Below, piece by piece: positions 6,561 through 22,488 of a stretch of 22,488 bases of DNA. Source of the stretch: a virus; IMG/VR virus record IMGVR_UViG_3300020442_002767, positions 1 through 22,488 of that record; one strand, given 5' to 3'. How positions within the stretch are numbered: position 1 is the stretch's first letter; each line of letters begins with the position of its first letter. A model generated the notes under the pieces. It was not told the DNA's origin, made no database searches, and saw only the letters and a list, made by a program, of their open reading frames with translations. Position numbers and translations under genes: made by a program.

Positions 6561-9500
6561 ATGAGTTTTCATATTAATTCCGATAAAGAAAAAATTAGGG
6601 GCGTCAATCCTAAAATTATCGGTGATAATGAAGCAACTATCAGAGTTGGTACTGGGGTAAATGAAGTTGAAATCATGCGACTTCAGAAAGATCCTGTTAG
6701 TGGTCTTCCTCGTGTAGGTATCAATAGAAGTGGTCAAAAAGTCAATAATATTGACCTTGATAACCAAGGATCTGGATACAATCAAGCTCCACTTGTAGAA
6801 ATTGATCCACCTCCAGCTGGAGGAACTCAAGCGCAAGCATCTGCTAGTATCTTCAATGGTAGAGTAACATCTATCGTTGTTAATGATCCTGGTAGTGGAT
6901 ATACCTCTGCACCAAATGTAGTCCTTACAGGAGGAAATGGTTCTGGCGCTTCTGCAACTGCTTTCCTTGACACAGTTGAATTTGAATTAGATATCAATGG
7001 TGCTATTAGAACTTCAACGTCTATCATTTCTGATACGGCAAGAATTCTGAACATTGACGTTGAAAACTTTGTTACTCCAGATTTGAATCTGAGAGCACCA
7101 AACTTAAAGACATTTATGAACGGCACTGGCACGCCATGGGCTGCCAATGTTATTGTCCAAAAAGGGCAGTATAGATATTCTGTTTCTAATGTATATCAAG
7201 CATTAAATACAGGAACCACTGGGGTTCTAGCACCAGAGCATAAGGATGGAGTTGAAACCAACGGTGAGGTTCAATTTAAGCATATTGGTTTCAGAGTAAA
7301 TAACGCTACAGATTTTAGTTATTTACAGACTGGAGAGGCAGGAACTTTCCCAAGATCAATTACACCAATTCTTGGTGATAGATCTGATAAAATTGCTACT
7401 ACAGAATACGTCCTTAACCTAGCGACAAATGACGTTGGTGGTCGTGTTTATGTTTCTCAGCAGATTGGTTCTGACCTGAACGATGGTCGTTCAGCAGTTA
7501 ACCCTGTTCGTACCATTAAGAAAGCGGCGCAGATCGCATGGTCTACTCCTGGTGTAAAAGAGACACTGATTATTTCTGGTGGTGATTATGTAGAAGATAA
7601 CCCAATTTCACTACCACCAGATTGCTCGGTTGTTGGTGATAACCTTCGTTTGGTAATTATTAGACCAGGAAACGTTGGTAAACACATCTTTAAGTTTGGT
7701 GATAAGAACTACGTTACTGGAGTTACCTATAGAGACAAGGTTGACTCTAACGGAGATCCTACTGGAACGTGGGACTTTGCTATGGTCTTTGATGACAAGC
7801 AAAGAATTATTATTGATAATGAAGTAAATGGAGACTTTGGTGTTGAGTTTCCAATTGGTCATCAAGTTTTTGGACCAGATAGATTTAGAATTAGTTTCCA
7901 GAACAATACAGGATTAAGTCTTCTTGCATCTGGTGTTCAGATTTTAGGATTGAACACTGGTGCTAGAGCAAATGTATTTGATGTAAACTTCAGCTCTACT
8001 ACTGGTGCCAATGCATTTGTTGCTGGTACTATTGATGTACAGTTGACTTCTGGTTCCTTTATTGAAGGTGACCAATACAGTTATATTTCTTCTGCTGCTA
8101 CAGGTGGTGCATTAACACAAACCATTAGTGGAACTGCTGGGGAAAATACTCTTAGGTTCACTACAGACCCAACATCTGATCTTCCTGTAGGTAATGTTGT
8201 TTTCTTAGACGATACAGATAACTCATCATTTACTCAGGGATACTATCAAGTTTCTGTTATTAACAATGGTAATGCTCCAACTTATTGGGATGTTACTTTC
8301 AATCCTATTTTAGGAGCACAGGGTTGGAACTCAACCTTGACAGAGACAATTACAATTAACTCTGCTTCTCCAACAACTAATACAATTGATACTGTTAATC
8401 TAAAGTCAATTAGAGCTGAAGGTGAAGTTGTTTCATACGACGAAGACGTTACATCTACTCTACCGATTACTAGATTAGACTTCTCCTTGCAAGGAGATCC
8501 TAGTATTGCAACAGGTGGTTTCCAAGAGCAGCAATTTGGTAGTGCAGAAGACCTTGGTGGTATTGTCGTATATACTAGTGCTCTTGTAGGTAGAACTAAT
8601 ACTCACGAATTCAAAGAAGGTCAAGAAATTATTCTTGAAAATCTTCCAACCTCTGGTCCTGATCTATCTTTCTTGAACGGAAAACAAAGAATTTACAAAG
8701 TTCTAGAAGATGCTGACGGAAGAGCAAGACGTTTTGTTATTCCGAAGAAAGTTCCTTCTCTGACAACAGCGAATTTCCAACCAAGTGAATTTGCTGTCGT
8801 AAAATCTTACTCAAAGTCTGTTACTCTATCCTTACTTAACTCACCAAACAAGTTCCCACTTGCAACTCCTGTAGAAAGAAGGTATCAAGACGCTTGTCAG
8901 TTAATTAGAAACAATAGAGATTACATTGCCGAAGAAGTAATCGGTATTATTAACGATCAATTTAAAACTGATTACTATTCAGTATACAATATTGATACTG
9001 TTAACAACACATTTGATATTTACTTGGGTCCTCTAGACCACGAAAATACTTATGTTAGTGGTGGTACAGTAACATTTGGCGGAACTTCTTATGCAATTAG
9101 TGGTTTTGTTTACGACACTGCAGTAACAGGGGTCGCGACAATTACAACCACGGCAGCTGCTGTTGCTGCATTGTCTGAAGATGATACTGTTCAATTAGCA
9201 GACATTCTTATTTCCTGTAGTGCTGGTCAGAAAATTTACCCAGCATATAGTTCCCCAACTTCTGGAAACAACACTGGCACAGATGGTGATACACAGTGTA
9301 AGCAAGATATTATCCACTTCTTAAATGCTCTAGTAAGAGACCTTGAATTTGGATCTAACCACAATGTTATTGAAGCTGCCAAGAAATATATTGTTGGTGG
9401 TAAGATTGCTTTCATTGAAGATGAAATTATCCAAAATGTACGCGCTATTGAATATGCTAGAGAACTAGCAATTTATGCAATGTGCAATTGGAGGATCAAG

Positions 9501-12500
9501 AACAGAACAACTGCTGATCCTCTGTATGTAACAAAGCACGCTACCACTCCAAGATATACTGACCCTACTGTTATTAATACAACTGCAGGAACACCTGCTT
9601 GTGATGATGTAAGGTCTGCTATTGATACTCTATCGTTCCTTTGGGTAGATATCATTACCAATAATCAAAATGGAACATATCTTGATGCTGCATATTTAAT
9701 TGCTAGAAATGCCGATCTTATTGCAGATCAGGCACTTATTGATACTGAAATTGCCTATCCAACTTTAAATCTCAGTGATGTACATCAAAGAAAGTGTCGC
9801 AGAGATATTAAGATTGTACTAGAAGGTTTAACAAGAGACTTAGTTCTTGGTGGAAACCATGGTGTGGTTTCTACAGCAGAGTCATATTTCAGTGGCACAT
9901 CTCTTTCTGGTATTTCAGAAGCACAAAGACCACAAACAATCTATGCATTCCAAAGAGTAAAACTATACGCCATTTACGCAATGCGTAACTGGTCTGATGG
10001 AAACGTATTACAAACCACTCCAATTGGATCTACATATGTTCCTACTACAGGAGCAATGACGGTAACCATCCCAGATCCAGCAGTAATACCTGTAGCTAAC
10101 TCAGATAGAATCGCTTTTGCTGAAGGAGCTATTACATATAGTTGTGCTCATGATGGTGGTGGAAACGATGCAAGTCCATATAGAACTGATACTAATTTTG
10201 GACAAAGTTTCTTAATCACTAACGTTGTATCTAACGGTGGTAATACCACTATTAGTTTAAATGTTGGTGCAGCAGGAAGCAATACCGATGCACATACGTT
10301 TGTAAGTGCTATTGCTAATGGAACTAAAGTCATCTATGGTCCAGTTACACTTACTTCACCAATTCCTAAGTTTGAAGACTGGAGTATTTTAACTGATGTT
10401 AATGCATCTGCTCCTATTGGTATTTTCACTCCATCCAATGCTACTTACGATACTGCCACTGGTGATTTTGTATTGACCATGAATAGTCATGGATTAACAA
10501 CATCCAATACTATTCGTTTACAACCAGAATCCTTTGTGTTTACATGCACAATGGATGGCAATAAAACTGAACATGCTTTACCAGGAGACGGTCAATCTGC
10601 ATATGGTAACAACCTTGTAATTACTGGAACAACCACAAATACAGTCACTGTTAACGTTGGTGCTTCTGGTCCTAATGTACAGTTTACACCAAGTGCTGCA
10701 ACATACAATCCTTCAACTGGAGCATTAGTATTAGAGATTGGTTCTCATACTCTAGATGTTGGAGAAGGAGTTGTTATTGCTGACAATTCACTGTCCTTCA
10801 CTTGCGCGATGGATGGAAACCAGTCTACTAAGACTTATCCTCGCCCTGGTATTGATCCTTTTGCTGGTAGGTCTATGCCTATCACAGGAAAGACGGCAAC
10901 ATCAATCACAATCAATGCTGGTATTTCTGGTCCTAATAAGTATTTCCAACCAACTGGAGCTAACTACAATCCTTCCACGGGAGATCTAGTTCTTACTGTT
11001 GGACAACATGGTCTTGGTGTTGGACGTGGTGTTGTAATTGAAGATAATTCACTTACATTTACTTGCGATATTGATGGTAACGTTTCAAATGAAACATATC
11101 CACGTTCTACTGACCCTGCATCTGGTGCTTCTCTAGAAATTACTGCTGTTGGTACTACATCCCATACAGTTACGGATGCTCCATATGATGCAACGACTGG
11201 TATTGTAACACTGACTATTGCTGGTCATGGATTTGCAAATGGAGATTATGTCAAGGTTGCTGATGGATCTCTAACATATACATGTGATTTAGATGGCAAT
11301 ACAGTACAGAAGACATATCCTCGTGCTGGTTACGATTATCCAAGTGGTCGCTGGTTAGAAATCTCCAATGTCACTACAAATACGTTTGACATTAATGTTG
11401 GTGGATCTTCTTATCAAGGTGCTCATACATTTGTAAGTGCATCTGCTAATGGTCTTGAGCGTCAAGATGGAACGTTTACAGTTAATGTAGGTGGTGCTGG
11501 ATCTGCTTCTGGTTCTGTACATACTTTCGTAAGTGCTCAACCAAATGCTGTTAAGCACGAACCACAATCCGCACATACATTTGTAAGTGCCTCTACTAAT
11601 GCAGTATCTCATTCTCCACAATCTGCACATACGTTTGTAAGAACAAATACTGATTCTGTAAGTGCTTATTCTTCTACTGCTGGATCAATTTGTTCAGGTG
11701 TAGAATCTACTATTAACACAGCATTAGAGTTGTTTGAAGATATTTTAGATGGTACAACTGTTGCTGGTTCTACAACACAAACTTTTGGAACATTATATGA
11801 AACTAACGATATTATCACATATCCAGATAGTTTCATTAATGATTTCGGTAACAACCGCATGGCGGTTCGTGGTAGATATGATGACTTCCCAATTATTGAA
11901 GCTTCGCCATACACACAGAATGCTTCTGTTATTTCATTCAGAGGTGGTGGTGGTGCTCTAATTGATGGCACAAAGGTTAAGCAACCTAACTGTCCTTTCC
12001 CTGGTCTAGAACCAGACGGATCAGCATCGTTCCCCAACCAAGGTAAGTCCATGGTTGCGGCGGCATTCACGATTGTTTCCTTTGGTGGTACTGGTTATAA
12101 AGTTATTGAAGATGGTTACACACAGTTGGTTTCTGTGTTTGTTATCTTCTGTCAAGATGGTGTTCTCTGTGAAACTGGTGGATACGCTTCTATCACCAAC
12201 TCTGCTACTAACTTTGGTACTTTCGCTCTAAGAGGAACTGGATTTAGAAGAGATTGTTATGAGTTTGACGTAGCAACTGTTAACGTTGTATCTCAAACAC
12301 CAACTGGTAGAACTACTCTTACTATTGGTGGTATTGGTAGAGAACCACTTGAGCATTACATCTGTAAGTTTGATGGTTTTAGAAATGCAGATCCAGATAA
12401 GGAATTCTTCATTGATGCTGTAAGTGGCGTCACTGTTGGACCTCCTTTCACTGCAACACTTACTCTTGATGATGGTGTAGGAAATGGTCTTACTCTGATT

Positions 12501-15500
12501 AGAGAATCGGATGGAGCTACCATTTCTGGTTTGACTGCACTACAGAATGCGCTTACTCCTTCTAACGCAGCAAATGCAACCCTAAAACTACACAGACCTT
12601 CTATTGTTAACTCCTCTTCCCACACTTGGGAATTTGCAGGTTCTGGCACCAACTACCTTGCGCTACCTGAAAACGGTGGTACTAAAGTTGAGGCAAACGA
12701 ACAAGTTTCTGAAAACTATGGTCGTGTATATGTCTCTGGTACTGACGAACTAGGTGACTTTAAAGTTGGTACATTTGCTAGAATTGAAAACAGAACTGGT
12801 AACATTACCTTCACTGGTACGGTTACAATTTCTGAAGTTGAATTCTTGAAACTGAAAGGTGGCGACGTTGTTGTTACTGGATTTGACAATAGTAATACAC
12901 TTGGTGGTGCTAACTCTAGCGACTCCAAGTTACCTACTCAAAAGGCAGTTAAAGATTATATCACAAACTCTCTTGGACCTTACATCAACAAACCATACTC
13001 TACGAACGCAGTTCCTAGAGCACTAGTTGAACTTACTGACTCTGGTAAGATCTCTCTTGATCAGATTCCAGCACTAAGACCATTCAGTGTCTTTACTGTT
13101 GCTGATCAAGCAGAAAGACTAGCACTAGAGGGAGCACTTGCTGGTGACATCGCTATCCAACAGGATACTTCCACATCCTTCATTCTAAACAATGACCTAA
13201 CAAGTCTATATCTAGGATTTGCTGTTGATTCTAGTCTTGTATTTAATATTGGTGATGTATATACAGGATCGCCATCTACAGGTAGAATTCAGGCAACTGA
13301 ATACAGAGAAGGTGTAGTTCACACTATCAATATTACTGACGGTGGTTCTGGATATACCGTTGCTCCAACGATTCAGATTACTGGAGGGAACCCAGCAACT
13401 GGAGCAGTAGCAGCAACAGCTGTTGCTACAATTGCTAATGGTGAAGTTGTTACTATTACAATTACAGAAAATGCAAGTTTCGTTGGTGGTTTTGGATATA
13501 CCACACAACCATCAGTTAACATTAGTGCTCCAGCAGGAGCAGGATCTGCAGCTACTGCAGATGCATTTATTGAAAGCAGATTGTACGGTAACATCGTCAA
13601 CAGTATCAAGATGCTTGATACTGACACATTTGAAGATAGTGATTCTCCATCTCCAAATACTGTTAATATCACTAGAGTTGTCAATACTTCATCATCTACT
13701 GCAAGTAACTGGGTATCACTAAGTAGTGATTCGGTTGGTGTTGGATCTCTTACTGGTCCTGGTCTTATTTCAACAACCTTATTAGGTTCTGAGGCAGCAA
13801 ACTCTTTCACATTCTTGAGAGGAGACCAAAGATACGCAAAGGTTGTTCAATCACTCAAGGGTGCAGAAACAAGATATTTTGCAAGACTATTTGCACAAGC
13901 ATCTACAGGTGCAAGTTCCTTTATTTTCCAAGGACTATCTGACGTTCTTAAAGGACATGAAATTGTAGCTAATGTTGGTGGCATTGCTAATGATACCACT
14001 GTAAACGGTGTAACTGTTGTTGGCAACTTGACAACAGTTTCTTTCAACAATCCAATTACATCAACTATTGCAAACGGAACTGTTATTGAATTCAATCGTG
14101 GTGCTTCTCCACTAATCTTTGATTCTACTAATACTGGTGGTGAATTTATTGATTCAGTTGTTATTGCAAATCCTGGAACAGGATTTACTGATGGTCAATA
14201 TTTTGATATTCCTCTAGATGCACCTGCAGGAACAAATGGCAATGATTTAAGAGTCAACATTATTGTTGGTGAAAATGGACAATCTGGTCAAGTCACCACA
14301 TGTACTGTGACTAATGCTGGTTCTGGATACACTGCAGATTTCCAAGTCACACCAAACCCAAGCATTATCGGATCTGGTTCTAACCTAGTTCTACTTGCAA
14401 AAGTAGCAACTACACAGAAACAATTTGCTAACATCGCACTAGATGTCCAGAGAGTTTCTGATCTAACAATTTCTCAAGACCTCTTCGGAACAATTGGTGT
14501 TGCTAGATTTAAGAAATCTCAGTTTAACATTGGCGATGAAGGAAATGGATCTGTATCTATCAAGATGGGTCCAGATAGTGGTCTTGACGCTGACTTACTA
14601 GATGGTCAGCAAGGTAATTACTACCTAAATGGTGCCTTCTTCGTTGATAGTAGCATTAATCCAGACAAACTTGCTAGTGGAACATATAGTATTGATATCA
14701 GTGGTAGATCTACTAATACACTTCGTTTAGACACTGGTACTAGTAATGCTAATGCTAACCCAGGTCCAAGTGATGCTGTACAAGGCGTAACATTACAGAC
14801 TCTGTTCAACAGTTCTAATGGTCTACTATCAGCTTTCCCAAGCGTAGACACTGGATCATCTAACTCTGCTAAACATTTAGTCATGACTCTCCGTAATGGT
14901 GAGTCTGGTGGTGATGCTACTTTTGGTGGTGTAAGACAACTTGCATTTGCTAATGATGACAGAATTTATTTCCGTGGTTCTGGTGACGCTGTAACTTCTT
15001 ACGGTTCTTGGTATGAAGTTTGGAACTCTGGAAACATGGGTATTGACTCAGGTCTAGATGCAGACAAACTTGATAACAAACAAGGTGTATGGTATCAAGA
15101 TGGTTGGAATATCAAGAAGAATGAAATTTTTGATACTAGACTACCAACATGGAGAAGTTCTACTGCATTTAGAGATAAGATTGAAGTTAAATCTTATGCT
15201 GGAGCAGAAACATTCTATAGAATTTTAGTAAGACAAAATCTAGATATTGCTCCTGGTGGAGATTTTGAAGCTAACAAAACAATTGACATTTTTGATGTCA
15301 ATAAGATTAGTGTTGGTGACTTTACAATTACTGCAACTGATCAAGATGTTGATCAGAACGACTCTTCCAATACATACACGATGTTAATCGGAAGACTTTC
15401 TTCTGGTGGAAATATTAGCGCCGCTATCTATCTCGGATATGCAGGTGATGAAAGAGAATTTGAACATTGGGAAATTTTTGATGATAATACTGTTCAGTAT

Positions 15501-17141
15501 GCAGAGATTGGTAATTCTTCTGGAACTGGTTTCCTAAGACTTGGTAGAAATGACGGCATTGCTGCAACTCAACCATATATCTATTTCAACTCTTCTCAAG
15601 CACAAGCAGTAGATAATAACGGTGACCCTACTTACAACTCAGCTATTATTGCTGATGGTGGTAACGCTACCGAAGGATCTGGTACTCTTGAGTTTAAAGT
15701 CGTTAACGAAAACGAACTTAAAGTCAACAATAACATTATTTGGAACGCAGGTAATGTTGGATTCAACTCTTCTAATGTAGTCTCAACTTCTGGACTTAAG
15801 TCTGCTGTGATGAGAGACACCAACGGAGACTTCTCCGCTGGAACAATTACCGCTGCTTTGACAGGTGCTGCTTCGGATAACGTTCTGAAGACTGGCGACA
15901 CAATGACTGGCAACCTGATTCTAACAGGTGGTGCAAGTGTTAATATTCAAAGCACTGGTACTTTAGCAGTTGGTGCAAGTGCAACTGTTGGCACTGATTT
16001 CACAGTTGATAGTGGAACACTATTTGTCAACTCCACAAACAACAGAGTAAATATTGGTCAGACTGCAGATGCTAACGCAGTCAAGTTTAATGTTTACAGT
16101 GCTGCTGGTTCCCTTAATTTCCAGTCTAACCTAGCACTATCTTCACAGACAACACTTTATCAATCAAGTGTATTCAATCAAGTAGATGGTGGTGAATCTG
16201 GTTTAATTTTACAGCATGGTGCTTCTGCTGCTGCCCAGTGGGGTATTACAGCACATAGAACAGGTGCTAATGTTGGTGAACTTATTATCAGAACTAGAAC
16301 AGCTAATGCTACTTCTGCTGAGAGATTAAAAATTAGTAATGGTGGCAACGTCACACCTGGTGCAACCAACGACCAAGAACTTGGTTCAGGTTCTCTCAAG
16401 TGGTCCAATGTTCATACTCATATCGTTACTGTTAAGGACAGCACAAGAATTGGTGATGGATCTTCCAATGCCGAGGCAGACATTCATCTCAGAGGTGGTG
16501 GTACTGGAAACGGTGGTGGTAAAGGATTCCGTTTAGGATCTAATATTGGTGGTGGTGCAGATCTATTTGAAATCTATGCATCTCAAACTAATGGTGGTGA
16601 TGATTGGAAGAGTCTTGCATCTCCTAATGCATTACCTCCAGCACTCGCAATTCAAGGCACTAACAACAGAGTTGGTATTAATACCAACACTTTCAACGGT
16701 ACAGACACTACTGTCACACCTAATGTTGCTAGAGATTATATCCTGAATGTTCAGGGAGACATGAACTTAAATGGTCAGTTCTTCCAGAATAATGCAGAAT
16801 TTGTTACTTCTAGATGGACAGAAGCTACCAACCAAACGGATATCTACAGACTATCTAAAGTAGGTATTAATGTTGCTGATCCAACAGACACATTAGAAAT
16901 TTCTGGTAATGTCAACATTAAAGGTAATACTTTCACTAGCGGACAATGCGATGATGTATTGGAAGCAAATGGAGAAAAACAATATATTGACACCAAAGGA
17001 ATTATCAAGAGAAACAGTAATACCGTTTCCGAAAGTCTAACCATCGGTTCTAGTGATAGATGTATGTCTACTGGACCTATTGAAGTTACTGGTAATGCTG
17101 TGGTAACCGTACAGTCTGGTGGTGTATGGGTCGTGTTATAA
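6561..17141 (+). CDS. Giant 3,526-aa virion structural / tail-fibre-like protein
   Basis: One uninterrupted frame. In order: N-terminal segment with two GSGY modules (about 70-135); IATTEYVLN...GGRVYVSQQIGSDLNDGRS...RTIKKAAQIA (about 275-330), which looks like the first turns of a pectate-lyase-like beta-helix; a mixed beta region; a duplicated alpha-helical region (about 775-1144); five beta repeats of about 86 residues and four HTFVSA units (about 1150-1710); a second beta-helix-like block (ASPYTQN at 1781 to GGYASITNSATNFG near 1873-1886); KLPTQKAVKDYI and further GSGY modules (about 2110-2340); and a C-terminal third with LDG motifs (DADLLDGQ at 2676, DADKLDNKQ at 2833) as in T4-like long-tail-fibre proteins. 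It ends VVTVQSGGVWVVL. No signal peptide or membrane segment is seen. Similar very large fibre-like proteins are known in cyanophages. A receptor-facing or baseplate-attached fibre is likely; its exact position is unknown. Confidence 0.8.
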   Translation: MSFHINSDKEKIRGVNPKIIGDNEATIRVGTGVNEVEIMRLQKDPVSGLPRVGINRSGQKVNNIDLDNQGSGYNQAPLVEIDPPPAGGTQAQASASIFNGRVTSIVVNDPGSGYTSAPNVVLTGGNGSGASATAFLDTVEFELDINGAIRTSTSIISDTARILNIDVENFVTPDLNLRAPNLKTFMNGTGTPWAANVIVQKGQYRYSVSNVYQALNTGTTGVLAPEHKDGVETNGEVQFKHIGFRVNNATDFSYLQTGEAGTFPRSITPILGDRSDKIATTEYVLNLATNDVGGRVYVSQQIGSDLNDGRSAVNPVRTIKKAAQIAWSTPGVKETLIISGGDYVEDNPISLPPDCSVVGDNLRLVIIRPGNVGKHIFKFGDKNYVTGVTYRDKVDSNGDPTGTWDFAMVFDDKQRIIIDNEVNGDFGVEFPIGHQVFGPDRFRISFQNNTGLSLLASGVQILGLNTGARANVFDVNFSSTTGANAFVAGTIDVQLTSGSFIEGDQYSYISSAATGGALTQTISGTAGENTLRFTTDPTSDLPVGNVVFLDDTDNSSFTQGYYQVSVINNGNAPTYWDVTFNPILGAQGWNSTLTETITINSASPTTNTIDTVNLKSIRAEGEVVSYDEDVTSTLPITRLDFSLQGDPSIATGGFQEQQFGSAEDLGGIVVYTSALVGRTNTHEFKEGQEIILENLPTSGPDLSFLNGKQRIYKVLEDADGRARRFVIPKKVPSLTTANFQPSEFAVVKSYSKSVTLSLLNSPNKFPLATPVERRYQDACQLIRNNRDYIAEEVIGIINDQFKTDYYSVYNIDTVNNTFDIYLGPLDHENTYVSGGTVTFGGTSYAISGFVYDTAVTGVATITTTAAAVAALSEDDTVQLADILISCSAGQKIYPAYSSPTSGNNTGTDGDTQCKQDIIHFLNALVRDLEFGSNHNVIEAAKKYIVGGKIAFIEDEIIQNVRAIEYARELAIYAMCNWRIKNRTTADPLYVTKHATTPRYTDPTVINTTAGTPACDDVRSAIDTLSFLWVDIITNNQNGTYLDAAYLIARNADLIADQALIDTEIAYPTLNLSDVHQRKCRRDIKIVLEGLTRDLVLGGNHGVVSTAESYFSGTSLSGISEAQRPQTIYAFQRVKLYAIYAMRNWSDGNVLQTTPIGSTYVPTTGAMTVTIPDPAVIPVANSDRIAFAEGAITYSCAHDGGGNDASPYRTDTNFGQSFLITNVVSNGGNTTISLNVGAAGSNTDAHTFVSAIANGTKVIYGPVTLTSPIPKFEDWSILTDVNASAPIGIFTPSNATYDTATGDFVLTMNSHGLTTSNTIRLQPESFVFTCTMDGNKTEHALPGDGQSAYGNNLVITGTTTNTVTVNVGASGPNVQFTPSAATYNPSTGALVLEIGSHTLDVGEGVVIADNSLSFTCAMDGNQSTKTYPRPGIDPFAGRSMPITGKTATSITINAGISGPNKYFQPTGANYNPSTGDLVLTVGQHGLGVGRGVVIEDNSLTFTCDIDGNVSNETYPRSTDPASGASLEITAVGTTSHTVTDAPYDATTGIVTLTIAGHGFANGDYVKVADGSLTYTCDLDGNTVQKTYPRAGYDYPSGRWLEISNVTTNTFDINVGGSSYQGAHTFVSASANGLERQDGTFTVNVGGAGSASGSVHTFVSAQPNAVKHEPQSAHTFVSASTNAVSHSPQSAHTFVRTNTDSVSAYSSTAGSICSGVESTINTALELFEDILDGTTVAGSTTQTFGTLYETNDIITYPDSFINDFGNNRMAVRGRYDDFPIIEASPYTQNASVISFRGGGGALIDGTKVKQPNCPFPGLEPDGSASFPNQGKSMVAAAFTIVSFGGTGYKVIEDGYTQLVSVFVIFCQDGVLCETGGYASITNSATNFGTFALRGTGFRRDCYEFDVATVNVVSQTPTGRTTLTIGGIGREPLEHYICKFDGFRNADPDKEFFIDAVSGVTVGPPFTATLTLDDGVGNGLTLIRESDGATISGLTALQNALTPSNAANATLKLHRPSIVNSSSHTWEFAGSGTNYLALPENGGTKVEANEQVSENYGRVYVSGTDELGDFKVGTFARIENRTGNITFTGTVTISEVEFLKLKGGDVVVTGFDNSNTLGGANSSDSKLPTQKAVKDYITNSLGPYINKPYSTNAVPRALVELTDSGKISLDQIPALRPFSVFTVADQAERLALEGALAGDIAIQQDTSTSFILNNDLTSLYLGFAVDSSLVFNIGDVYTGSPSTGRIQATEYREGVVHTINITDGGSGYTVAPTIQITGGNPATGAVAATAVATIANGEVVTITITENASFVGGFGYTTQPSVNISAPAGAGSAATADAFIESRLYGNIVNSIKMLDTDTFEDSDSPSPNTVNITRVVNTSSSTASNWVSLSSDSVGVGSLTGPGLISTTLLGSEAANSFTFLRGDQRYAKVVQSLKGAETRYFARLFAQASTGASSFIFQGLSDVLKGHEIVANVGGIANDTTVNGVTVVGNLTTVSFNNPITSTIANGTVIEFNRGASPLIFDSTNTGGEFIDSVVIANPGTGFTDGQYFDIPLDAPAGTNGNDLRVNIIVGENGQSGQVTTCTVTNAGSGYTADFQVTPNPSIIGSGSNLVLLAKVATTQKQFANIALDVQRVSDLTISQDLFGTIGVARFKKSQFNIGDEGNGSVSIKMGPDSGLDADLLDGQQGNYYLNGAFFVDSSINPDKLASGTYSIDISGRSTNTLRLDTGTSNANANPGPSDAVQGVTLQTLFNSSNGLLSAFPSVDTGSSNSAKHLVMTLRNGESGGDATFGGVRQLAFANDDRIYFRGSGDAVTSYGSWYEVWNSGNMGIDSGLDADKLDNKQGVWYQDGWNIKKNEIFDTRLPTWRSSTAFRDKIEVKSYAGAETFYRILVRQNLDIAPGGDFEANKTIDIFDVNKISVGDFTITATDQDVDQNDSSNTYTMLIGRLSSGGNISAAIYLGYAGDEREFEHWEIFDDNTVQYAEIGNSSGTGFLRLGRNDGIAATQPYIYFNSSQAQAVDNNGDPTYNSAIIADGGNATEGSGTLEFKVVNENELKVNNNIIWNAGNVGFNSSNVVSTSGLKSAVMRDTNGDFSAGTITAALTGAASDNVLKTGDTMTGNLILTGGASVNIQSTGTLAVGASATVGTDFTVDSGTLFVNSTNNRVNIGQTADANAVKFNVYSAAGSLNFQSNLALSSQTTLYQSSVFNQVDGGESGLILQHGASAAAQWGITAHRTGANVGELIIRTRTANATSAERLKISNGGNVTPGATNDQELGSGSLKWSNVHTHIVTVKDSTRIGDGSSNAEADIHLRGGGTGNGGGKGFRLGSNIGGGADLFEIYASQTNGGDDWKSLASPNALPPALAIQGTNNRVGINTNTFNGTDTTVTPNVARDYILNVQGDMNLNGQFFQNNAEFVTSRWTEATNQTDIYRLSKVGINVADPTDTLEISGNVNIKGNTFTSGQCDDVLEANGEKQYIDTKGIIKRNSNTVSESLTIGSSDRCMSTGPIEVTGNAVVTVQSGGVWVVL
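9297..9491 (+). repeat. Alpha-helical unit 1 of the giant protein
   Basis: Encodes residues 913-977. It starts CKQDI, contains LxRDLEFGSNHNV and ends AIYAMCNW. It is preceded by a helix YQDACQLIRNNRDYIAEE (775-792). It matches unit 2 at 9795-9992 in length (65 against 66 residues) and in its key positions. Similar helical elements with CxxDI...LxxDL..GGN are typical of giant cyanophage structural proteins. Confidence 0.7.
9795..9992 (+). repeat. Alpha-helical unit 2 of the giant protein
   Basis: Encodes residues 1079-1144. It starts CRRDI, contains LTRDLVLGGNHGV and ends AIYAMRNW. It too is preceded by an LDAAYLIARNADLIADQA helix (1041-1058), so the duplicated block is about 100 residues long. 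In the first copy a beta segment of about 100 residues separates the helix from the C-x2-D-I unit. Confidence 0.7.
10023..11418 (+). repeat. Array of about five 86-residue beta repeats
   Basis: Units of the giant protein share FxPxxAxYxPxTGxLVLTxxxHxLxxGxxVxI..NSLxFTC.xDGN...TYPR..DP.SG..L.IT..TxxxxTVNVGxSG. Three starts are at Phe1289, Phe1375 and Phe1462, 86-87 residues apart, and a fourth starts near Val1537. A divergent unit precedes them (about 1155-1250) and ends in its own HTFVSA (His1245). The divergence between units points to an old duplication, not a fresh slippage tract. Confidence 0.75.
11424..11645 (+). repeat. Short HTFVSA repeats, 18-residue (54-base) period at the end
   Basis: HTFVSA or HTFVR occurs at residues 1622, 1654, 1672 and 1690. 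The last three are exactly 18 residues (54 bases) apart, with the unit approximated by QSAHTFVSASTNAVSHSP. The units look like the tail ends of the 86-residue repeats without their bodies. Confidence 0.75.
11901..12220 (+). other. Second beta-helix-like block of the giant protein
   Basis: Encodes residues 1781-1887 with ASPYTQNASVISF, GALIDGTKVKQ, GKSMVAAAFT, GGTGYKVIEDGYTQLVSVF and GGYASITNSATNFG. The succession of short strands with GG and N-S-x-x-N-F-G turns is that of a right-handed parallel beta-helix. It probably completes the fold begun near residue 293, about 1,400 residues upstream. Confidence 0.5.
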
Positions 17142-17144
17142 ATA
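17137..17144 (+). promoter_or_regulatory. T4-type late promoter TATAAATA before the adhesin cluster
   Basis: This is an exact match to the T4 late -10 box. It overlaps the TAA stop of the giant gene (17139-17141). A start a few bases downstream gives a leader of about 18 bases containing AAGGAA (17158-17163), a good Shine-Dalgarno 5 bases before the ATG at 17169. It probably drives the three adhesins and three oxygenases, since no other box is seen before 22066. Confidence 0.7.
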
Positions 17145-17168: not shown

Positions 17169-18275
17169 ATGGGAGCTGTAAAAGCTGATATCTTTACTTC
17201 TACGGGTGGGTCCACTGGTGTTTTAGGTTTTCCAACAGGAACAACTGCACAAAGACCCAGCCCCGCCCAGGAAGGATTTGCAAGATACAATATTGATATT
17301 GGTGCTATTGAAATTTATTATTCTGGTGCTTGGAATAAACTTTCTTCTGGTGCTACTGGTGGAGCAGATGGATCTTCGTCAGCAAATGCTTTTGCAAATT
17401 TAGAAGATATTGTCGGATTGTACGACAATGGAACATACAATTTATGGACCACTGTTGGTGGAAATGTCAGTCCATTTCAAATGCCCATTTGTTTTGATCA
17501 TGGCGGTCCTTGGTATGTTTTAAGTTTCAGATTTCCAACATACGGATTTAATGAAGTTAATGATACATTGTGGTCCTGGGCATATAATACTGGAACTTCA
17601 AGTTCTTTAAAAAATATCCATGATGACTTTGTTCATCATCACTTCTCTAGATCTGGCAATCAATATGGTTGGCAGATGGCAAATGCCGAAAGAAATAGAG
17701 AAGATATGGCAGGAATTGGTGGATCTGGAGTTTCTGGATATAACCAAACCAATGGTGGAGGTGGTAATAGTGGATATGTTGGTATTAATTACTACAACCA
17801 CGCAACAAATGGTGATTTTACCAATGCTCAATTAAATGCTTTAAGAGACACCGTTACTCAGTTATCTCATTTGACACCACACTATTCATTTACAGCTGAT
17901 AGTGATGGTAATGCTGCAGGTAGTGTTGGTGATTGGACAGTTGACAATGATGAAACAACTCTAGGTTATGGACATTGCAACTGGATCAAAGATAAAAATG
18001 GTCAAGCACAAAGAACCAGTAATGGTTTTGAATCTTCTGATAACAATGGTTTTGTTGGTTTCTGGACTCATAATCAATACTCTAGAACTTCTATTCCTTA
18101 CAACTGGGGTTGGGCACAATCAGTTGGAGATCCTCAAGGATTAAAAACTAATGCTTTAATTATTCCAAATGAAATTAAAGGATACACTGGATCAGGTGGT
18201 GGTAGTGCATTTGGAACTTATTTCAGTGGTGCTGTAGGCAAAATCAATAACCGTGCTGTATTTCTCTGTAGGTAA
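17169..18275 (+). CDS. Tail-fibre adhesin paralogue 1
   Basis: A 368-aa protein. Residues about 19-59 form a fibre module (GFPTGTTAQRPSP...GFARYNIDIGAIEIYYSGAWNKL). Then GLYDNGTYNLWTTVGG...PFQ...FDHGGPWYV (Trp115) begins the C-terminal domain, which has INYYNHATNGDF (Tyr208) followed by ALRDTVTQLSHLTP and DSDGN. Near the end is a glycine-rich loop GYTGSGGGSAFGTYFSG (from Gly338) and a final strand NNRAVFLCR. These marks are shared with the next two genes, which are about equal in length. The LWTT..GG..PFQ...GGPWYV pattern recalls fibrinogen-C-like lectin domains, but this is a weak inference. It has the best ribosome site of the three (AAGGAA). A receptor-binding fibre tip is likely from module type and position. 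Confidence 0.7.
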   Translation: MGAVKADIFTSTGGSTGVLGFPTGTTAQRPSPAQEGFARYNIDIGAIEIYYSGAWNKLSSGATGGADGSSSANAFANLEDIVGLYDNGTYNLWTTVGGNVSPFQMPICFDHGGPWYVLSFRFPTYGFNEVNDTLWSWAYNTGTSSSLKNIHDDFVHHHFSRSGNQYGWQMANAERNREDMAGIGGSGVSGYNQTNGGGGNSGYVGINYYNHATNGDFTNAQLNALRDTVTQLSHLTPHYSFTADSDGNAAGSVGDWTVDNDETTLGYGHCNWIKDKNGQAQRTSNGFESSDNNGFVGFWTHNQYSRTSIPYNWGWAQSVGDPQGLKTNALIIPNEIKGYTGSGGGSAFGTYFSGAVGKINNRAVFLCR

Positions 18276-18280
18276 TAAAA

Positions 18281-19372
18281 ATGAGTAGAGTAGAAGCAGA
18301 TAATTTTTATAGTGCTGGTTCAGCGTCAACGGGTGCTATAGGACTTCCTAAAGGTCAGGAAAATGAAAAACCCGTAAGTAATTTACCCCAAGCTGGTCTT
18401 CGTTACAGTGAGACCACTGGAGGAATTGAGTTATATGCAGGTGGTGCGTGGTCTAGTTTCGGTACTGGAGGTGCTGATGGATCTACTTCTGCCTCTGCAT
18501 TTGGATATTTACATGAAGTAGAAGGTCTTTATACTGGCACTCAGAATTTATGGACTACTGCTGGTGGACAAGTTGCTCCATTCCAGATTAGTGTAAATTT
18601 TGATGTTGTTGGTGGACCTTGGTATGAAGCTTCTTTTGCATTCCCAGATGGTATTACTAGTGGTGGTATGAATAATGATATGTGTCATGTCACCAACAAT
18701 TCTACAAATGATGGATTCAAGGGTGCATATAATGAAAATGTAAATGTTGGATATGGACCACAAAACTTTCCTTCTTTGTATGGGCACAGTGTTACTGCTA
18801 CCCAAGGTGAGGGTATTACGGTAACAGGAGAAGTAACAACAGGATCTTCTGGTGGTACTACAAGTGTTAGAAGTATTAATTACTACAACCACGCAACTCA
18901 GTCCAATTTCTCATCCGCACAATTAAATGCATTAAGAAACATTATTAGTAAGTTGTGTCCAGCAACTCCTTTTGTTGGTTCTGATTATGATTCTGATGGT
19001 AATCAGCAAACTCAAATTGGTTGGGAAAGACCGTGGGATCGTTATGCTGAAGGTGGAACTGGGTATGCACATATTGTGTATATCCGCGATGTAGATGGAA
19101 ATACACAAATGGCATGTGTGGGGCAATCAGATCCATCAAATAATGGACAAGCATATCTTTGGACAGAAAATACATTCCAAAGAGTTAGAAATTATATTGA
19201 TGGTGAGGAAGCTGGTGTTGGTGCTGAACCATATGGTTTGTTAAATAGTAAAATGATTCTACCAGCACAGTGGTTCGGTTATACTGGATCTGGAGGAGGT
19301 GCTGCTTTTGGCGCTTACTACAATTCAAATATTGGTAGAAAAAACAACAGAGTAGTATTTTTATTCAAATAA
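18281..19372 (+). CDS. Tail-fibre adhesin paralogue 2
   Basis: A 363-aa protein starting 5 bases after paralogue 1. It has the same plan: fibre module with GLRYSETTGGIELYAGGAW, then GLYTGTQNLWTTAGGQVAPFQ and GGPWYEASF, then INYYNHATQSNFSSAQLNAL with DSDGN, and a C-terminal GYTGSGGGAAFGAYYNSNIG and NNRVVFLFK. The TTAxRP signature of paralogues 1 and 3 is replaced by GQENEKP. The middle (about residues 130-195), between GGPWY and YYNHAT, differs clearly from the other two and carries an insert with GEGITVTGEVTTGSSGG. Conserved ends with a variable middle are what one expects for adhesins that specialise in different surface ligands. Function is inferred from the fibre module and context. Confidence 0.7.
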   Translation: MSRVEADNFYSAGSASTGAIGLPKGQENEKPVSNLPQAGLRYSETTGGIELYAGGAWSSFGTGGADGSTSASAFGYLHEVEGLYTGTQNLWTTAGGQVAPFQISVNFDVVGGPWYEASFAFPDGITSGGMNNDMCHVTNNSTNDGFKGAYNENVNVGYGPQNFPSLYGHSVTATQGEGITVTGEVTTGSSGGTTSVRSINYYNHATQSNFSSAQLNALRNIISKLCPATPFVGSDYDSDGNQQTQIGWERPWDRYAEGGTGYAHIVYIRDVDGNTQMACVGQSDPSNNGQAYLWTENTFQRVRNYIDGEEAGVGAEPYGLLNSKMILPAQWFGYTGSGGGAAFGAYYNSNIGRKNNRVVFLFK

Positions 19373-19376
19373 AGTC

Positions 19377-20465
19377 ATGAGCACAGTACAAGCTAATCTC
19401 TTTGTAACGGTAGGTGGCGACACTGGAGCCATGAAACTTCCTGTTGGAACCACGGCAGAGAGACCACAAACACCACAAGATGGTTATTTTAGATTTAATA
19501 CAGAAGACAAGGCACTGGAATATTATGCCAGTAACCAATGGAAACAAATTGCTGGAACTAAAAAAGGAAGTAATCCCACATCAGCATTTGATAGTTTAAG
19601 TGAAGTTGCTGGAGCTTATACAGGAAAACAAGTTCTGTGGACTACAGCAGGTCAAGGAAGTAACATCATGCCGTTCAAAGTCTTGGTTGACTTTGATGCT
19701 ACTGGTGGTCCTTGGTATGTAATTACTCCACAAAATTATCCTGGTGGAACAGGAAACTCCAAATATGTGTTTGGTGGTGCTGGATATAACATGTCAGATA
19801 ATGACATCATGAAGCAATCATATACACAAAATGTAGACATTGGTTTAGGTCAAGGATCACAAAATGTCAGATCTCTTTTTGGACTTACTGATAACGCAAA
19901 CTATGGTCAATTAGAAACTAGTGTCAGTGGATCTTATGCTCCGTCTGATAATAGTAGTAACATGTATGCATGGTATCCATATTTTTATTATAACCACGCT
20001 ACATGCAGTCATTTTGCCGATGATCAGATAAGAGCAATTGCATCATCAATTTCTGTTCTATCATCAGAAACTCCATGGATTGGTGTTGATTCTGACTCAG
20101 ATAGAAATAGTTCTGGTAACTCTAATACTTCATGGAATTCTTATAATACCAGTGGTCTTAGCAATGGACACACCACTTGGGTTAGAGATATAAATGGCAA
20201 TATTCAAAGAATGATGAATGCCTTCTCTAATAATAATGAATCTTGCGTTTATGTTTGGACAAGAACTACTTTTTCTAGGTATAATACTGGTGGTGGATTT
20301 AATAATTCAAACGGATCTCCATCAGGATTACTCACAGATGCGATGATTCTACCAATTTTCCACAAATATTATACAGGATCTGGTGGTGGTTCTGGATTCG
20401 GACCTTATTTTAACCCATCTATTAATAACAGAATTAACGGATATACTTATCTACTTGTAAAATAA
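19377..20465 (+). CDS. Tail-fibre adhesin paralogue 3
   Basis: A 362-aa protein starting 4 bases after paralogue 2. Its fibre module is KLPVGTTAERPQTPQDGYFRFNTEDKALEYYASNQW. Then follow AYTGKQVLWTTAGQ...PFKVLVDFDATGGPWYV, FYYNHATCSHFADDQI with LSSETP and DSDRN, and the end YYTGSGGGSGFGPYFNPSIN with NNRINGYTYLLVK. Compared with its sisters it has a Ser/Asn-rich middle (about 165-200). All three lack a signal peptide or membrane segment, as expected for virion proteins. It is followed after one base by the first oxygenase gene. The three could form separate homotrimers or a mixed fibre tip; the sequence does not decide. Confidence 0.7.
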   Translation: MSTVQANLFVTVGGDTGAMKLPVGTTAERPQTPQDGYFRFNTEDKALEYYASNQWKQIAGTKKGSNPTSAFDSLSEVAGAYTGKQVLWTTAGQGSNIMPFKVLVDFDATGGPWYVITPQNYPGGTGNSKYVFGGAGYNMSDNDIMKQSYTQNVDIGLGQGSQNVRSLFGLTDNANYGQLETSVSGSYAPSDNSSNMYAWYPYFYYNHATCSHFADDQIRAIASSISVLSSETPWIGVDSDSDRNSSGNSNTSWNSYNTSGLSNGHTTWVRDINGNIQRMMNAFSNNNESCVYVWTRTTFSRYNTGGGFNNSNGSPSGLLTDAMILPIFHKYYTGSGGGSGFGPYFNPSINNRINGYTYLLVK

Positions 20466-20466
20466 T

Positions 20467-21027
20467 ATGAATGAACCTGTTGAATTTGGTGATGTTTTAC
20501 CAAAAGATTTATTTGATGAAATTGGGGAAGAATTATTTAAGAAAGGTTGGAGACTATCAAACAAATCTGCGAAGGGAACAAAAAGATTCTGGACGCAGCA
20601 TCAAGTAGATAATCCAATTTTCAATAGAGCTGGAAATATTGTATTAGAAAAAGTAAAAGAATATACTGACGAAAGTATTAAGTTAGTTAGAATTCACTGC
20701 AACGGACAAACAACAGGTCAAGATGGCGCTGCTCATGTTGATTTTTGGACAGATAACGTTTGGACTTTTATTTTATTCACCAATAAGTTTTGGGATGTTA
20801 GGTTAGGCGGTGGATTCAATGTTATAAATCCAGAAATAAAAAAACATCAATACTATCACTATGCATCTAATTGGGGTGTGTTGATTCCATCTAAATGGAT
20901 GCATTGGGGCGATCCTCCAAACTCCCATACTGATGAATTGAGAACTTCAGTTGCTTTTTCCTTTGCAACTGCCGATCAATATGATATCATTAGAGAGAAA
21001 GCAATTGAAAGTGAACCATCTAAATGA
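20467..21027 (+). CDS. 2-oxoglutarate/Fe(II) oxygenase 1
   Basis: A 186-aa double-stranded beta-helix oxygenase of the Fe(II)/2-oxoglutarate family. His90-x-Asp92 (AHVDFW) and a distal His146 (KWMHWGD) would hold iron. Arg159 (ELRTSVAFSF) would hold the 2-oxoglutarate carboxylate, 13 residues after the distal His. The order and spacing fit the small phage and prolyl-hydroxylase-like oxygenases, and the length is typical. Such enzymes hydroxylate proteins, nucleic acids or small molecules; the substrate here cannot be read. The gene follows the third adhesin after one base and overlaps the next gene by 4 bases (ATGA). It would be made from the same late message as the adhesins. Confidence 0.8.
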   Translation: MNEPVEFGDVLPKDLFDEIGEELFKKGWRLSNKSAKGTKRFWTQHQVDNPIFNRAGNIVLEKVKEYTDESIKLVRIHCNGQTTGQDGAAHVDFWTDNVWTFILFTNKFWDVRLGGGFNVINPEIKKHQYYHYASNWGVLIPSKWMHWGDPPNSHTDELRTSVAFSFATADQYDIIREKAIESEPSK

Positions 21028-21539
21028 TTTACAATCTAAGTAATCCTGTTACTGTAGATTATAAACAATTTAAAAACATTGTAACCTCACCAGATTTTCC
21101 GTGGTTGTACAGTAAGACTACGAACATTGATTGTGGGGAAGATGATTGTGAATTGTTTTGCCACCCTTTACTACAAAGACCAGGGCCAGGGTCAAGATTT
21201 ACAAAACAGTGTAGCAACTATACAGATTTAGCTGTGCATGTTGCTGAACAAATTTTAAGTTACAATAAAGTTGGGTTTGAAACGTTTTATCGTATGGCAG
21301 TCAACTTTACATATAACACTAAAGTTGGAAGTCCAAAACACGAAGATCATCCATTCCCACACAAAAATTTATTAGTATACCTCAGTTCTTTTAAAGATGG
21401 TTCTACTGTAGTATGTGATGAAGATGAAATATATAAATCAAAACCAGTAGAAGACTTGCCAATTGTTTTTGCTGGACCACATTACAATGAACCACCATCG
21501 TCTGGAAACAGAATTGTTCTTATCGCAACTTTTATATAA
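21024..21539 (+). CDS. 2-oxoglutarate/Fe(II) oxygenase 2
   Basis: A 171-aa protein with the full motif set: His106-x-Asp108 (PKHEDHPFPHKNLLVYL), distal His153 (AGPHYNEPP) and Arg163 (GNRIVLIATF), exactly 10 residues after the distal His. The strand after HxD (KNLLVYLSSF...GSTVV) and the closing RIVLIATFI are typical of the double-stranded beta-helix fold. Several Cys residues (DCGEDDCELFC at about 37-47) are unusual for the family and could be a small metal or disulfide site. It overlaps oxygenase 1 by ATGA, and oxygenase 3 begins directly after its stop. It resembles its neighbours only in the motif positions, so it is not a recent duplicate. Enzyme class is well supported; the substrate is unknown. 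Confidence 0.8.
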   Translation: MIYNLSNPVTVDYKQFKNIVTSPDFPWLYSKTTNIDCGEDDCELFCHPLLQRPGPGSRFTKQCSNYTDLAVHVAEQILSYNKVGFETFYRMAVNFTYNTKVGSPKHEDHPFPHKNLLVYLSSFKDGSTVVCDEDEIYKSKPVEDLPIVFAGPHYNEPPSSGNRIVLIATFI

Positions 21540-22067
21540 ATGACTATTGAAATTATTGATGATGCTTTAGCGCCAATGGAGATGGCTGCAATAGAAGGTC
21601 ATCTAATGGGACAAGACATTCTTTGGAACTGGAATGAAAATATTGTTGCCGAAGAATTGAGAGAGTGTGATAAAAAATATGATCAACAAATGACACATTT
21701 GTTTTATATGAATCCCACATTTATGTCTCCAGATTATAGATGTTTGGAACCTCTTTTCTATAAGTTAAATGCTAGTGTTATGGTTCGGGTCAAAGCTAAC
21801 CTAACATTTTGCACAGAAAAAAATATTCTTACAGGATGGCACACTGATGTAATTGAATCTTGGGGGAAAGAACATAAAACAAAAACAGCAATTTATTATG
21901 TAAATGACACTAATGGATACACTATGATTAGAGATGATGATGGTGTAGAAACTAAAGTAGAAGGTAATAAAAACAGACTAGTTATTTTCCCGTCGCACTT
22001 TAAACACGCAGGTGTTACTTGCACTTCTCCAAGGAAGAGAGTTGTAGTTAACATAAATTACCTATAA
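21540..22067 (+). CDS. 2-oxoglutarate/Fe(II) oxygenase 3
   Basis: A 175-aa protein with His101-x-Asp103 (GWHTDV), distal His156 (HFKHAGV) and Arg167 (RKRVVVNINYL), 11 residues after the distal His. KTAIYYVNDTNGYTMI...NRLVIFPSHFKHAG is the classic strand order of prolyl-4-hydroxylase-like phage enzymes (AIYYxN..GxT...P..G.xxxFxxxxxHxG). The N-terminus MTIEIIDDALAPMEMAAIEGHL is the usual opening of this group. The start codon follows the stop of oxygenase 2 with no gap. It is the last gene of the adhesin/oxygenase unit; a promoter-like box overlaps its stop codon. Substrate unknown; protein side chains or glycans on the virion or host surface are possibilities. Confidence 0.85.
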   Translation: MTIEIIDDALAPMEMAAIEGHLMGQDILWNWNENIVAEELRECDKKYDQQMTHLFYMNPTFMSPDYRCLEPLFYKLNASVMVRVKANLTFCTEKNILTGWHTDVIESWGKEHKTKTAIYYVNDTNGYTMIRDDDGVETKVEGNKNRLVIFPSHFKHAGVTCTSPRKRVVVNINYL

Positions 22068-22073
22068 TAAATA
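22066..22073 (+). promoter_or_regulatory. Late-promoter-like box AATAAATA before the small coiled-coil gene
   Basis: One mismatch to TATAAATA. It overlaps the stop codon of oxygenase 3 and lies 27 bases before the ATG at 22101, a geometry close to that of the exact box at 17137. Confidence 0.6.
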
Positions 22074-22100: not shown

Positions 22101-22298
22101 ATGGACCCAGCAGCACTAAAGAAAAATTTTGAGGAGCAAATTGCCACCACAGAAAAGCAAATTGCAGAACTAGAAGAAAATCTCAAGAAAGCAAACGAGT
22201 ATAAGATTAAACTACAAGGTGGTCTTGAAACTCTAGGACTACTAGAAGGCGAAGGAGCAGCACCAGAAGGCGAACCCGAAGCTCCAGCAGCTGAATAA
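22101..22298 (+). CDS. Small coiled-coil protein with acidic Ala/Pro/Glu tail
   Basis: A 65-aa protein, MDPAALKKNFEEQIATTEKQ and so on. Residues about 6-42 have regular heptads (FEEQIATTEKQIAELEENLKKANEYKIKLQ) and form a long coiled coil. The last 15 residues are rich in Glu, Ala, Pro and Gly. A GTG at 22092 would add three residues, but the ATG gives the natural start. No clear Shine-Dalgarno precedes either. The gene has its own promoter-like box and is followed by a strong terminator, so it is probably made alone and in quantity. Small coiled-coil proteins like this are common next to neck genes in T4-like cyanophages, but the function is unknown to me. A scaffold, chaperone or minor virion part is possible. 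Confidence 0.75.
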   Translation: MDPAALKKNFEEQIATTEKQIAELEENLKKANEYKIKLQGGLETLGLLEGEGAAPEGEPEAPAAE

Positions 22299-22301
22299 AT
22301 A
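22294..22301 (+). promoter_or_regulatory. Promoter-like box AATAAATA overlapping the stop of the small gene
   Basis: One mismatch to TATAAATA and 47 bases before the neck gene. If used, transcription would start within the left arm of the terminator at 22304-22341, so most of the hairpin would still be made. It is a weaker candidate for the neck operon than the box at 22316. Confidence 0.35.
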
Positions 22302-22303
22302 CT

Positions 22304-22341
22304 AAATCCCTTCTTCCTAAATAGGTAAGAAGGGATTTTTT
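22304..22341 (+). terminator. Strong rho-independent-type terminator
   Basis: A 12-base perfect stem, AAATCCCTTCTT (22304-22315) with AAGAAGGGATTT (22327-22338), has an 11-base loop CCTAAATAGGT and a run of six T (22336-22341) on the 3' side. It ends the small coiled-coil gene's message just 7 bases before the next ATG. Confidence 0.9.
22316..22323 (+). promoter_or_regulatory. Late-promoter-like box CCTAAATA in the terminator loop
   Basis: CTAAATA, the same heptamer as at 6518-6524, lies exactly in the loop of the terminator and 25 bases before the neck gene ATG at 22349. This spacing matches that at 17137 and 22066 (24-27 bases). A start at about 22330 would keep only part of the right arm, so the new message could not form the hairpin. 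Confidence 0.5.
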
Positions 22342-22348
22342 GTGTGTA

Positions 22349-22488
22349 ATGGCATCTCCAAGTTCTAGAGCTGAACTCATCACATATTGCAAGAGGCAAC
22401 TTGGCGAACCCGTGTTGCAAGTTAACATTGATGACGAACAGGTCAACAACGTAATAGACGACACGTTTCAGTTCTTCCAGGAGAACTG
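22349..22488 (+). CDS. 13: Neck protein, gp13-like, 5' end only
   Basis: The frame begins MASPSSRAELITYCKRQLGE and runs to the end of the window (46 complete codons). The pattern SRxELxxYCxRxLGxPVLxxNxDDxQxxxxxDDxxxFFQE is that of the neck/head-completion protein gp13 of T4-like cyanophages, as I recall it. In T4, genes 13 and 14 follow the baseplate, short-fibre and fibritin genes, and this gene likewise follows the fibre cluster. gp13 sits at the head-tail joint with gp14. The ATG lies 7 bases after the terminator T-run. No strong Shine-Dalgarno is seen; the sequence before the start is TTTTTTGTGTGTA. Only the N-terminus is seen, so the assignment is moderate. Confidence 0.6.
   Translation, partial: MASPSSRAELITYCKRQLGEPVLQVNIDDEQVNNVIDDTFQFFQEN

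Follow-up and report, generated by a model that had tools for sequence, protein, structure and literature searches.

Why does a virus place three small enzymes directly behind the genes for its fibre tips? The question is raised by a 22,488-base IMG/VR virus record (IMGVR_UViG_3300020442_002767; the whole of this stretch is called the window below), whose gene content is that of a marine T4-like cyanophage (Kyanoviridae) and whose structural protein P0010 shares 72% identity with its S-WAM2 counterpart. On its + strand, a giant tail-fibre gene is followed by three adhesin-like genes, three genes for 2-oxoglutarate (2OG)/Fe(II) oxygenases, a small phrog_580 gene and the neck gene gp13. The association between fibre and oxygenase genes looks real when genomes are compared, and its best reading, which we put forward tentatively, is that the enzymes are late protein hydroxylases with fibre proteins as their substrates. 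The six-gene unit and the box in front of it are laid out as follows.

17137..17144, + strand: T4-type late promoter box TATAAATA, overlapping the end of the giant-fibre gene; the sole exact copy in the window, conserved in the related contigs L004-L008.
17169..18275, + strand: adhesin-like fibre protein 1 (P0001), 368 residues; its orthologue is 59-97% identical in L004-L008.
18281..19372, + strand: adhesin-like fibre protein 2 (P0002), 363 residues; a paralogue of adhesin 1.
19377..20465, + strand: adhesin-like fibre protein 3 (P0003), 362 residues; residues 20-59 TSP3-like, C-terminal part weakly COLFI/fibrinogen-like.
20467..21027, + strand: 2OG/Fe(II) oxygenase 1 (P0004), 186 residues; phrog_274 (2e-17); predicted prolyl-hydroxylase-like fold (Foldseek match to PHD2, E 1.1e-5; Z 13.7).
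21024..21539, + strand: 2OG/Fe(II) oxygenase 2 (P0005), 171 residues; phrog_274 (5e-26); HxD..H..R conserved; missing from the relative L008.
21540..22067, + strand: 2OG/Fe(II) oxygenase 3 (P0006), 175 residues; phrog_274 (5e-41); PF13640 at 31.4 bits (cut-off 27).

A first, sequence-only reading had described three adhesin paralogues of near-equal length followed without gaps by three oxygenases carrying HxD, a distal His and Arg, and this arrangement, almost gapless, was confirmed by the open reading frames (ORFs), the identities and the motifs. All six ORFs lie on the + strand, with 5, 4, 1, -4 and 0 bases between consecutive members. The ratio of nonsynonymous to synonymous substitution rates (dN/dS) is 0.07-0.19 for all six genes against contig L005 and, where computable, 0.14-0.38 against L008, for which synonymous sites are near saturation; the low values indicate that all six are real genes under purifying selection.

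The pairing extends beyond the window. We located oxygenase genes by phrog_274 or PF13640 in 19 named records, 16 of them picked through matches to window proteins (15 to an oxygenase, one to an adhesin) and three through synteny around P0010, and merged matches starting 380 bases or less apart into one gene, which gave 4-15 oxygenase genes per genome. The second fibre gene, encoding the 1320-residue fibre of P-RSM4 and present in all but HTVC008M, served as an anchor in the remaining 18 genomes. These 18 carry 151 oxygenase genes, 51 of which fall within the 20 kb downstream of the anchor against 15.5 expected; none of 4000 rotations reached 51, and each of the 18 genomes has at least one oxygenase gene in this range. 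The range was picked after the positions had been seen, so that the test is exploratory, and some of the genomes are related (e.g., Nerrivikvirus W04 and W07), so that the counts are not independent. An earlier rotation test, whose fibre marker was incomplete and which excluded records without a marker match, gave a weak signal (8/72 within 5 kb, p 0.14; 16/72 within 10 kb, p 0.04) and is superseded by the anchor gene.

The association also recurs at the site between the giant fibre and gp13. S-WAM2 (Cymopoleiavirus) has, at the same position, three paralogous small tail-fibre tips, oxygenase-like genes, a small protein and gp13. In contrast to the window, its tips belong to phrog_6942 and its enzymes are two rather than three, namely a phrog_1644/DUF6445 protein, which also matches phrog_274 (8e-6), followed by a phrog_81 2OG oxygenase. 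In S-CAM4 and ACG-2014j, fibre-like genes are interleaved with annotated oxygenases at this site, and in S-RSM4 it holds six oxygenase ORFs by profile plus two more annotated 2OG oxygenases. A scan of the neck site, which omitted W08 and W16 (weak phrog_580) as well as S-CAM4 and S-RSM4, covered 11 records with a clear phrog_580 match, of which only S-WAM2 has a phrog_274 match within 25 kb; L035, L036 and L046 (weak matches) and the S-B43 region (without gp13) lay outside the comparison.

Among closer relatives, the four contigs L004-L007 all retain three adhesins and three oxygenases, and L009 (4.2 kb, oxygenases 100% identical) ends inside adhesin 3. L008 has three adhesins followed by oxygenases 1 and 3, with no space for oxygenase 2, of which the 43.9-kb contig carries no other copy. 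It had been suggested from the window that the equal numbers might be chance or might mean one enzyme per adhesin. A pairing of the latter kind, with equal numbers gained and lost together, was not borne out, as L008 and S-WAM2 each combine three tips with two enzymes and at least six oxygenases occupy the site in S-RSM4, and we rejected the 3+3 equality as meaningful.

The three enzymes proved to be genuine 2OG oxygenases, as first proposed. The HxD...H metal triad and the distal 2OG-binding Arg are present and conserved in P0004 (H90/D92/H146/R159), P0005 (H106/D108/H153/R163) and P0006 (H101/D103, with the distal His at 153 or 156 and the Arg at 165 or 167, each of these residues being invariant); a loose-pattern script chose H131/K143 in P0004 instead of the invariant H146/R159. 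Across ten genomes, the loose HxD/H/R pattern occurs in 76/88 oxygenase ORFs versus 92/604 other size-matched ORFs. While all three enzymes match phrog_274, the Pfam family 2OG-FeII_Oxy_3 (PF13640) is above the cut-off for P0006 only, below it for P0004 and absent from P0005, and NCBIfam returned nothing above its cut-off. No mutual similarity was found between P0004 and P0006 (BLASTP E 0.65; hhalign probability 0.2), and a PDB sequence search with P0006 gave only chance matches to designed repeat proteins. The best of five structural models of P0004, obtained with five sequences, has a mean predicted local distance difference test score (pLDDT) of 70.8. It forms a double-stranded beta-helix with 180 PDB matches at E<=0.001 in Foldseek, the best being PHD2, and PHD2/EGLN1 and the Pseudomonas putida prolyl 4-hydroxylase (P4H) fill nearly all of the best 50 rows (E ~1e-5 to 1e-4). 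A second aligner gave Z 13.7 over 168 residues for PHD2 and 12.9 for the P. putida enzyme. The modelled fold thus resembles that of prolyl hydroxylases, although identity to these two enzymes is about 10-17%.

Public labels of these families deserve a comment. Many public records and PHROGs list phrog_274 cyanophage 2OG oxygenases as 'DNA endonuclease V / denV' (e.g., L014 9001-9531, L029 5983-6552), and in the sequences examined the oxygenase motif is present instead. For P0004-P0006, we rejected a DenV function: no such Pfam family was matched at E<=1, and the 2OG motif and fold were found instead. Similarly, the phrog_1644/DUF6445 protein of S-WAM2 (L057 37945-38664) is labelled 'minor coat protein' and matches both phrog_274 and, below the cut-off, 2OG-FeII_Oxy_3; the label recurs next to oxygenases in syn9, S-CAM4 and HTVC008M, and phrog_1644 is possibly a misnamed oxygenase-like family.

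The adhesin-like proteins are clear paralogues. Adhesins 2 and 3 are 41% and 35% identical to adhesin 1 (34-41% among the three; BLASTP E 7e-58 for adhesins 1 and 2), and each L008 adhesin is 54-60% identical to its own window orthologue, which places the triplication before the split from L008. The model of adhesin 3 is of modest confidence (mean pLDDT 66). Over residues 20-59 it aligns with part of TSP3, a tailspike of CBA120, with a root-mean-square deviation of 1.1 over 39 residues, and for the remainder procollagen C-propeptides occupy the top six rows (Z 5.0-5.9), a level that possibly reflects only a common arrangement. Matches to fibrinogen are weak (E 0.05-0.3); further matches are cyanophage proteins that carry the labels 'Fibrinogen C-terminal' and 'Fibrillar collagen NC1'. 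Pfam gave no match to P0001-P0003, and of three fibre-locus proteins tested, one from S-IOM18 and one from P-RSM4 have weak, sub-cut-off COLFI and Fibrinogen_C matches. A FReD/COLFI-like nature of the adhesins, suggested by the model, is unproven. Among 50,697 phage records, a DNA-level search with the locus found no match, P0002 had no relative at E 0.01, and P0001 and P0003 were matched through their N-terminal part only; a PDB sequence search with the adhesins also found no match. The three proteins would presumably bind hosts.

The elements flanking the unit bear on its transcription.

6561..17141, + strand: giant tail-fibre protein, 3526 residues, upstream of the unit; its N-terminal 580 residues are 70-88% identical to the annotated 'tail fiber protein' of ACG-2014e (88%), S-CAM4 and S-RSM4.
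22067..22073, + strand: second late-promoter-like box, ATAAATA, directly 3' of the last oxygenase gene.
22101..22298, + strand: small phrog_580 protein (9e-20), which by synteny precedes the neck gene gp13 in cyanophages.
22304..22341, + strand: intrinsic terminator-like hairpin, from the RNA fold of 22300-22345.
22349..22488, + strand: start of neck protein gp13 (head-tail adaptor Ad2; phrog_211, 8.5e-8), truncated at the window end.

The single exact TATAAATA compares with 1.74 copies expected by chance, and it sits 23-25 bases 5' of adhesin 1 in all five relatives (L004-L008). No box of this type precedes any other gene of the unit, one-mismatch versions are not enriched in the window (156 versus 150 expected) and sigma-70-type boxes are about as frequent as chance predicts (23 versus 21.5). 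The sequence-only reading had placed the only promoter-like box before adhesin 1; the exact motif is found just there, and the shorter ATAAATA occurs additionally at 1762, 22067 and 22295. The hairpin between phrog_580 and gp13, which a simple scan had missed, folds with -19.3 kcal/mol (z -5.2), and none of 200 shuffles was as stable. The late box kept in the five relatives, the ATAAATA at 22067 and the hairpin before gp13 suggest that the oxygenases are probably made late, together with the fibres, and the conserved box and the near-gapless + strand genes likewise support the proposal of one late unit.

The reading that we tentatively prefer builds on this layout. Late-type transcription from 17137 would yield the three fibre-tip paralogues and the three small oxygenases jointly. 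The enzymes would be protein hydroxylases that belong structurally with the prolyl hydroxylases, and their targets would be residues in fibre or baseplate proteins made alongside them (the tips and/or the 3526-residue fibre). Hydroxylation before or during assembly might then alter fibre stability or the receptor-binding surface. In its favour are the late box kept in the five relatives, the conserved catalytic residues and purifying selection, the prolyl-hydroxylase-like fold of enzyme 1, the recurrence of the site with non-orthologous parts and the excess of oxygenases downstream of the fibre anchor. In addition, 17/44 fibre-locus oxygenases lie in a unit containing TATAAATA versus 7/44 other oxygenases (p 0.03). 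The sequence-only reading, which had proposed hydroxylation of virion proteins or changes to surface sugars, is partly supported.

A number of observations weigh against late hydroxylation of fibre proteins. The late box precedes accessory genes at the fibre loci about as often (28/85, p 0.56 versus the oxygenases there). Of the five P0004 models a single one is confident, the other four having a mean pLDDT of 56.4 or less. PHD2 is tied with SnoN (Z 13.4) and OkaE (13.0), both of which act on small molecules, so that the fold permits a protein substrate without proving it. Collagen-like G-X-Y runs are lacking, and a collagen-type substrate was rejected among window proteins P0001-P0012, in which the longest G-X-X run is 4. 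The giant fibre is shared by ACG-2014e, ACG-2014i and S-H9-1, whose corresponding site holds one protein of ~300-320 residues, one smaller protein and no annotated oxygenase. Although all three window enzymes match phrog_274, many members of this family lie away from fibres, and so do most of the nearest named relatives of P0004-P0006, with an Sf-CH8 copy beside tRNA and sugar genes, an S-CAM1 copy beside the clamp-loader gene gp44 and an S-RIM2 copy near psbA. The closest relatives of enzymes 1 and 2 are outside fibre loci; an S-RIM2 copy at a fibre locus is just as close to P0006 as the distant ones. A tree of 91 enzymes (quick method, poor alignment, 16/88 inner branches starred) gave no sign of fibre-dedicated oxygenase lineages, and its 28 location switches compare with 30.0 and 29.7 in shuffled data (138 and 150 of 500 as low). 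The enzymes thus seem to move between loci, and on this evidence a fixed long-term enzyme-adhesin pairing is unlikely, but they may nevertheless be recruited to fibre loci.

The main rival explanation, which we consider somewhat unlikely, is that the region behind the fibre genes readily accepts new genes and that the oxygenases inserted there are ordinary auxiliary genes with fibre-unrelated work in 2OG/nitrogen balance, DNA repair or other metabolism. As the fibre-downstream region is rich in accessory genes, we compared size-matched ORFs in ten records and found 35/88 oxygenase, 73/273 accessory and 5/331 core ORFs 0-20 kb downstream of the anchor. The accessory count marks a generally accessory-rich region and is a further point against a fibre-specific role. 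However, within-genome accessory draws predict 23.4 oxygenases and only 2 of 3000 draws reach 35, and with both fibre loci combined, oxygenases again exceed accessory ORFs (44/88 versus 85/273, p 0.002). Much of the raw signal is therefore the hotspot, with a modest excess remaining, which against rarer accessory genes (four genomes or fewer) is seen at 15 kb (p 0.004) and fades at 20 kb (p 0.078). The sequence-only reading had named, as part of what would refute it, oxygenases just as frequent away from adhesins, and the answer is mixed: 44/88 do lie outside both fibre loci in the ten genomes, yet at these loci they are denser than size-matched accessory genes. Insertion without a functional link is in keeping with the unconserved location on the enzyme tree and with the halogenase, ferrochelatase and methyltransferase genes in the same region of syn9. 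It also agrees with Sullivan et al. (2010, PMC3037559), who reported that 14 of 16 cyanophages carry 2OG-FeII oxygenases, which were numerous, and who proposed nitrogen/2OG and DNA-repair roles for them. It accounts less well for the window oxygenases forming one unit with fibre genes inside a structural block, and for the recurrence of this architecture with non-orthologous parts in S-WAM2.

Quite unlikely, in our estimate, is a tailoring role in which host-surface sugars, lipopolysaccharide or a metabolite are hydroxylated, for instance to block superinfection or to release progeny from receptor debris. The structural tie of PHD2 with SnoN and OkaE would fit such chemistry, as would the Sf-CH8 protein, the nearest relative of enzyme 1, which has dehydratase and heptose genes within a few kb. 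In Iyer et al. (2021, PMC7824862), a cluster of halogenase, carbamoyltransferase and 2OGFeDO genes in S-SSM6a is proposed to make a halogenated metabolite or to decorate the capsule. Against this, neither a sugar nor a metabolite gene turned up in the window's unit, whose neighbours are structural. Least probable is that the targets are host proteins or phage proteins outside the virion, for example translation factors, hydroxylated late in infection. P. putida P4H, whose substrate is EF-Tu, is among the structural matches of P0004, but the linkage to fibre genes would be left unexplained.

Cyanophage 2OG oxygenases were already known; their genomic linkage to fibre loci was without earlier report in our PMC literature search, which also found no measured hydroxylation of phage virion proteins and left subscription literature mostly outside. 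The nearest prior idea found is in a Baltic Sea study (PMC9301287), which reports that viral P4HA genes are abundant, refers to collagen in the tail fibres of viruses, calls the viral use cryptic and cites a viral P4H from PBCV-1. The likeness to PBCV-1 lies in a virus-encoded P4H, and the difference in collagen- or proline-rich-type substrates, which were not seen among window proteins. PBCV-1 is a eukaryotic algal virus whose P4H acts on substrates of that type, and the paper on this enzyme reportedly, by its title, gives evidence for 4-hydroxyproline in viral proteins.

Two neighbouring arrangements in other phages were observed in passing. In syn9 (32.9-44.8 kb; L052 6966-18789), two tryptophan halogenase genes come right after the tail-fibre and tail-fibre-assembly genes and are followed by a run of oxygenases; the halogenases are possibly further enzymes modifying fibre residues. 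In the Pelagibacter phage HTVC008M (L026 6001-8821), a non-cyanobacterial phage, two 'DNA endonuclease V' genes and a 2OG oxygenase gene are clustered after the baseplate hub gene.

The statistical link to fibre loci offers a concrete target, the virion proteins, for the 2OG oxygenases of cyanophages, whose role had been guesswork spanning nitrogen signalling, DNA repair and metabolite or capsule chemistry. It is tempting to speculate, though we hold this to be unlikely, that mobile sets of 2OG protein hydroxylases have been recruited repeatedly to the two tail-fibre loci, where they hydroxylate receptor-binding proteins; host recognition would then depend on a modification that requires oxygen and 2OG and may be tuned by the nitrogen and light state of the host. 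If virion proteins are indeed the target, the host range of ocean phages would be set in part by post-translational chemistry that is invisible to sequence-based host prediction.

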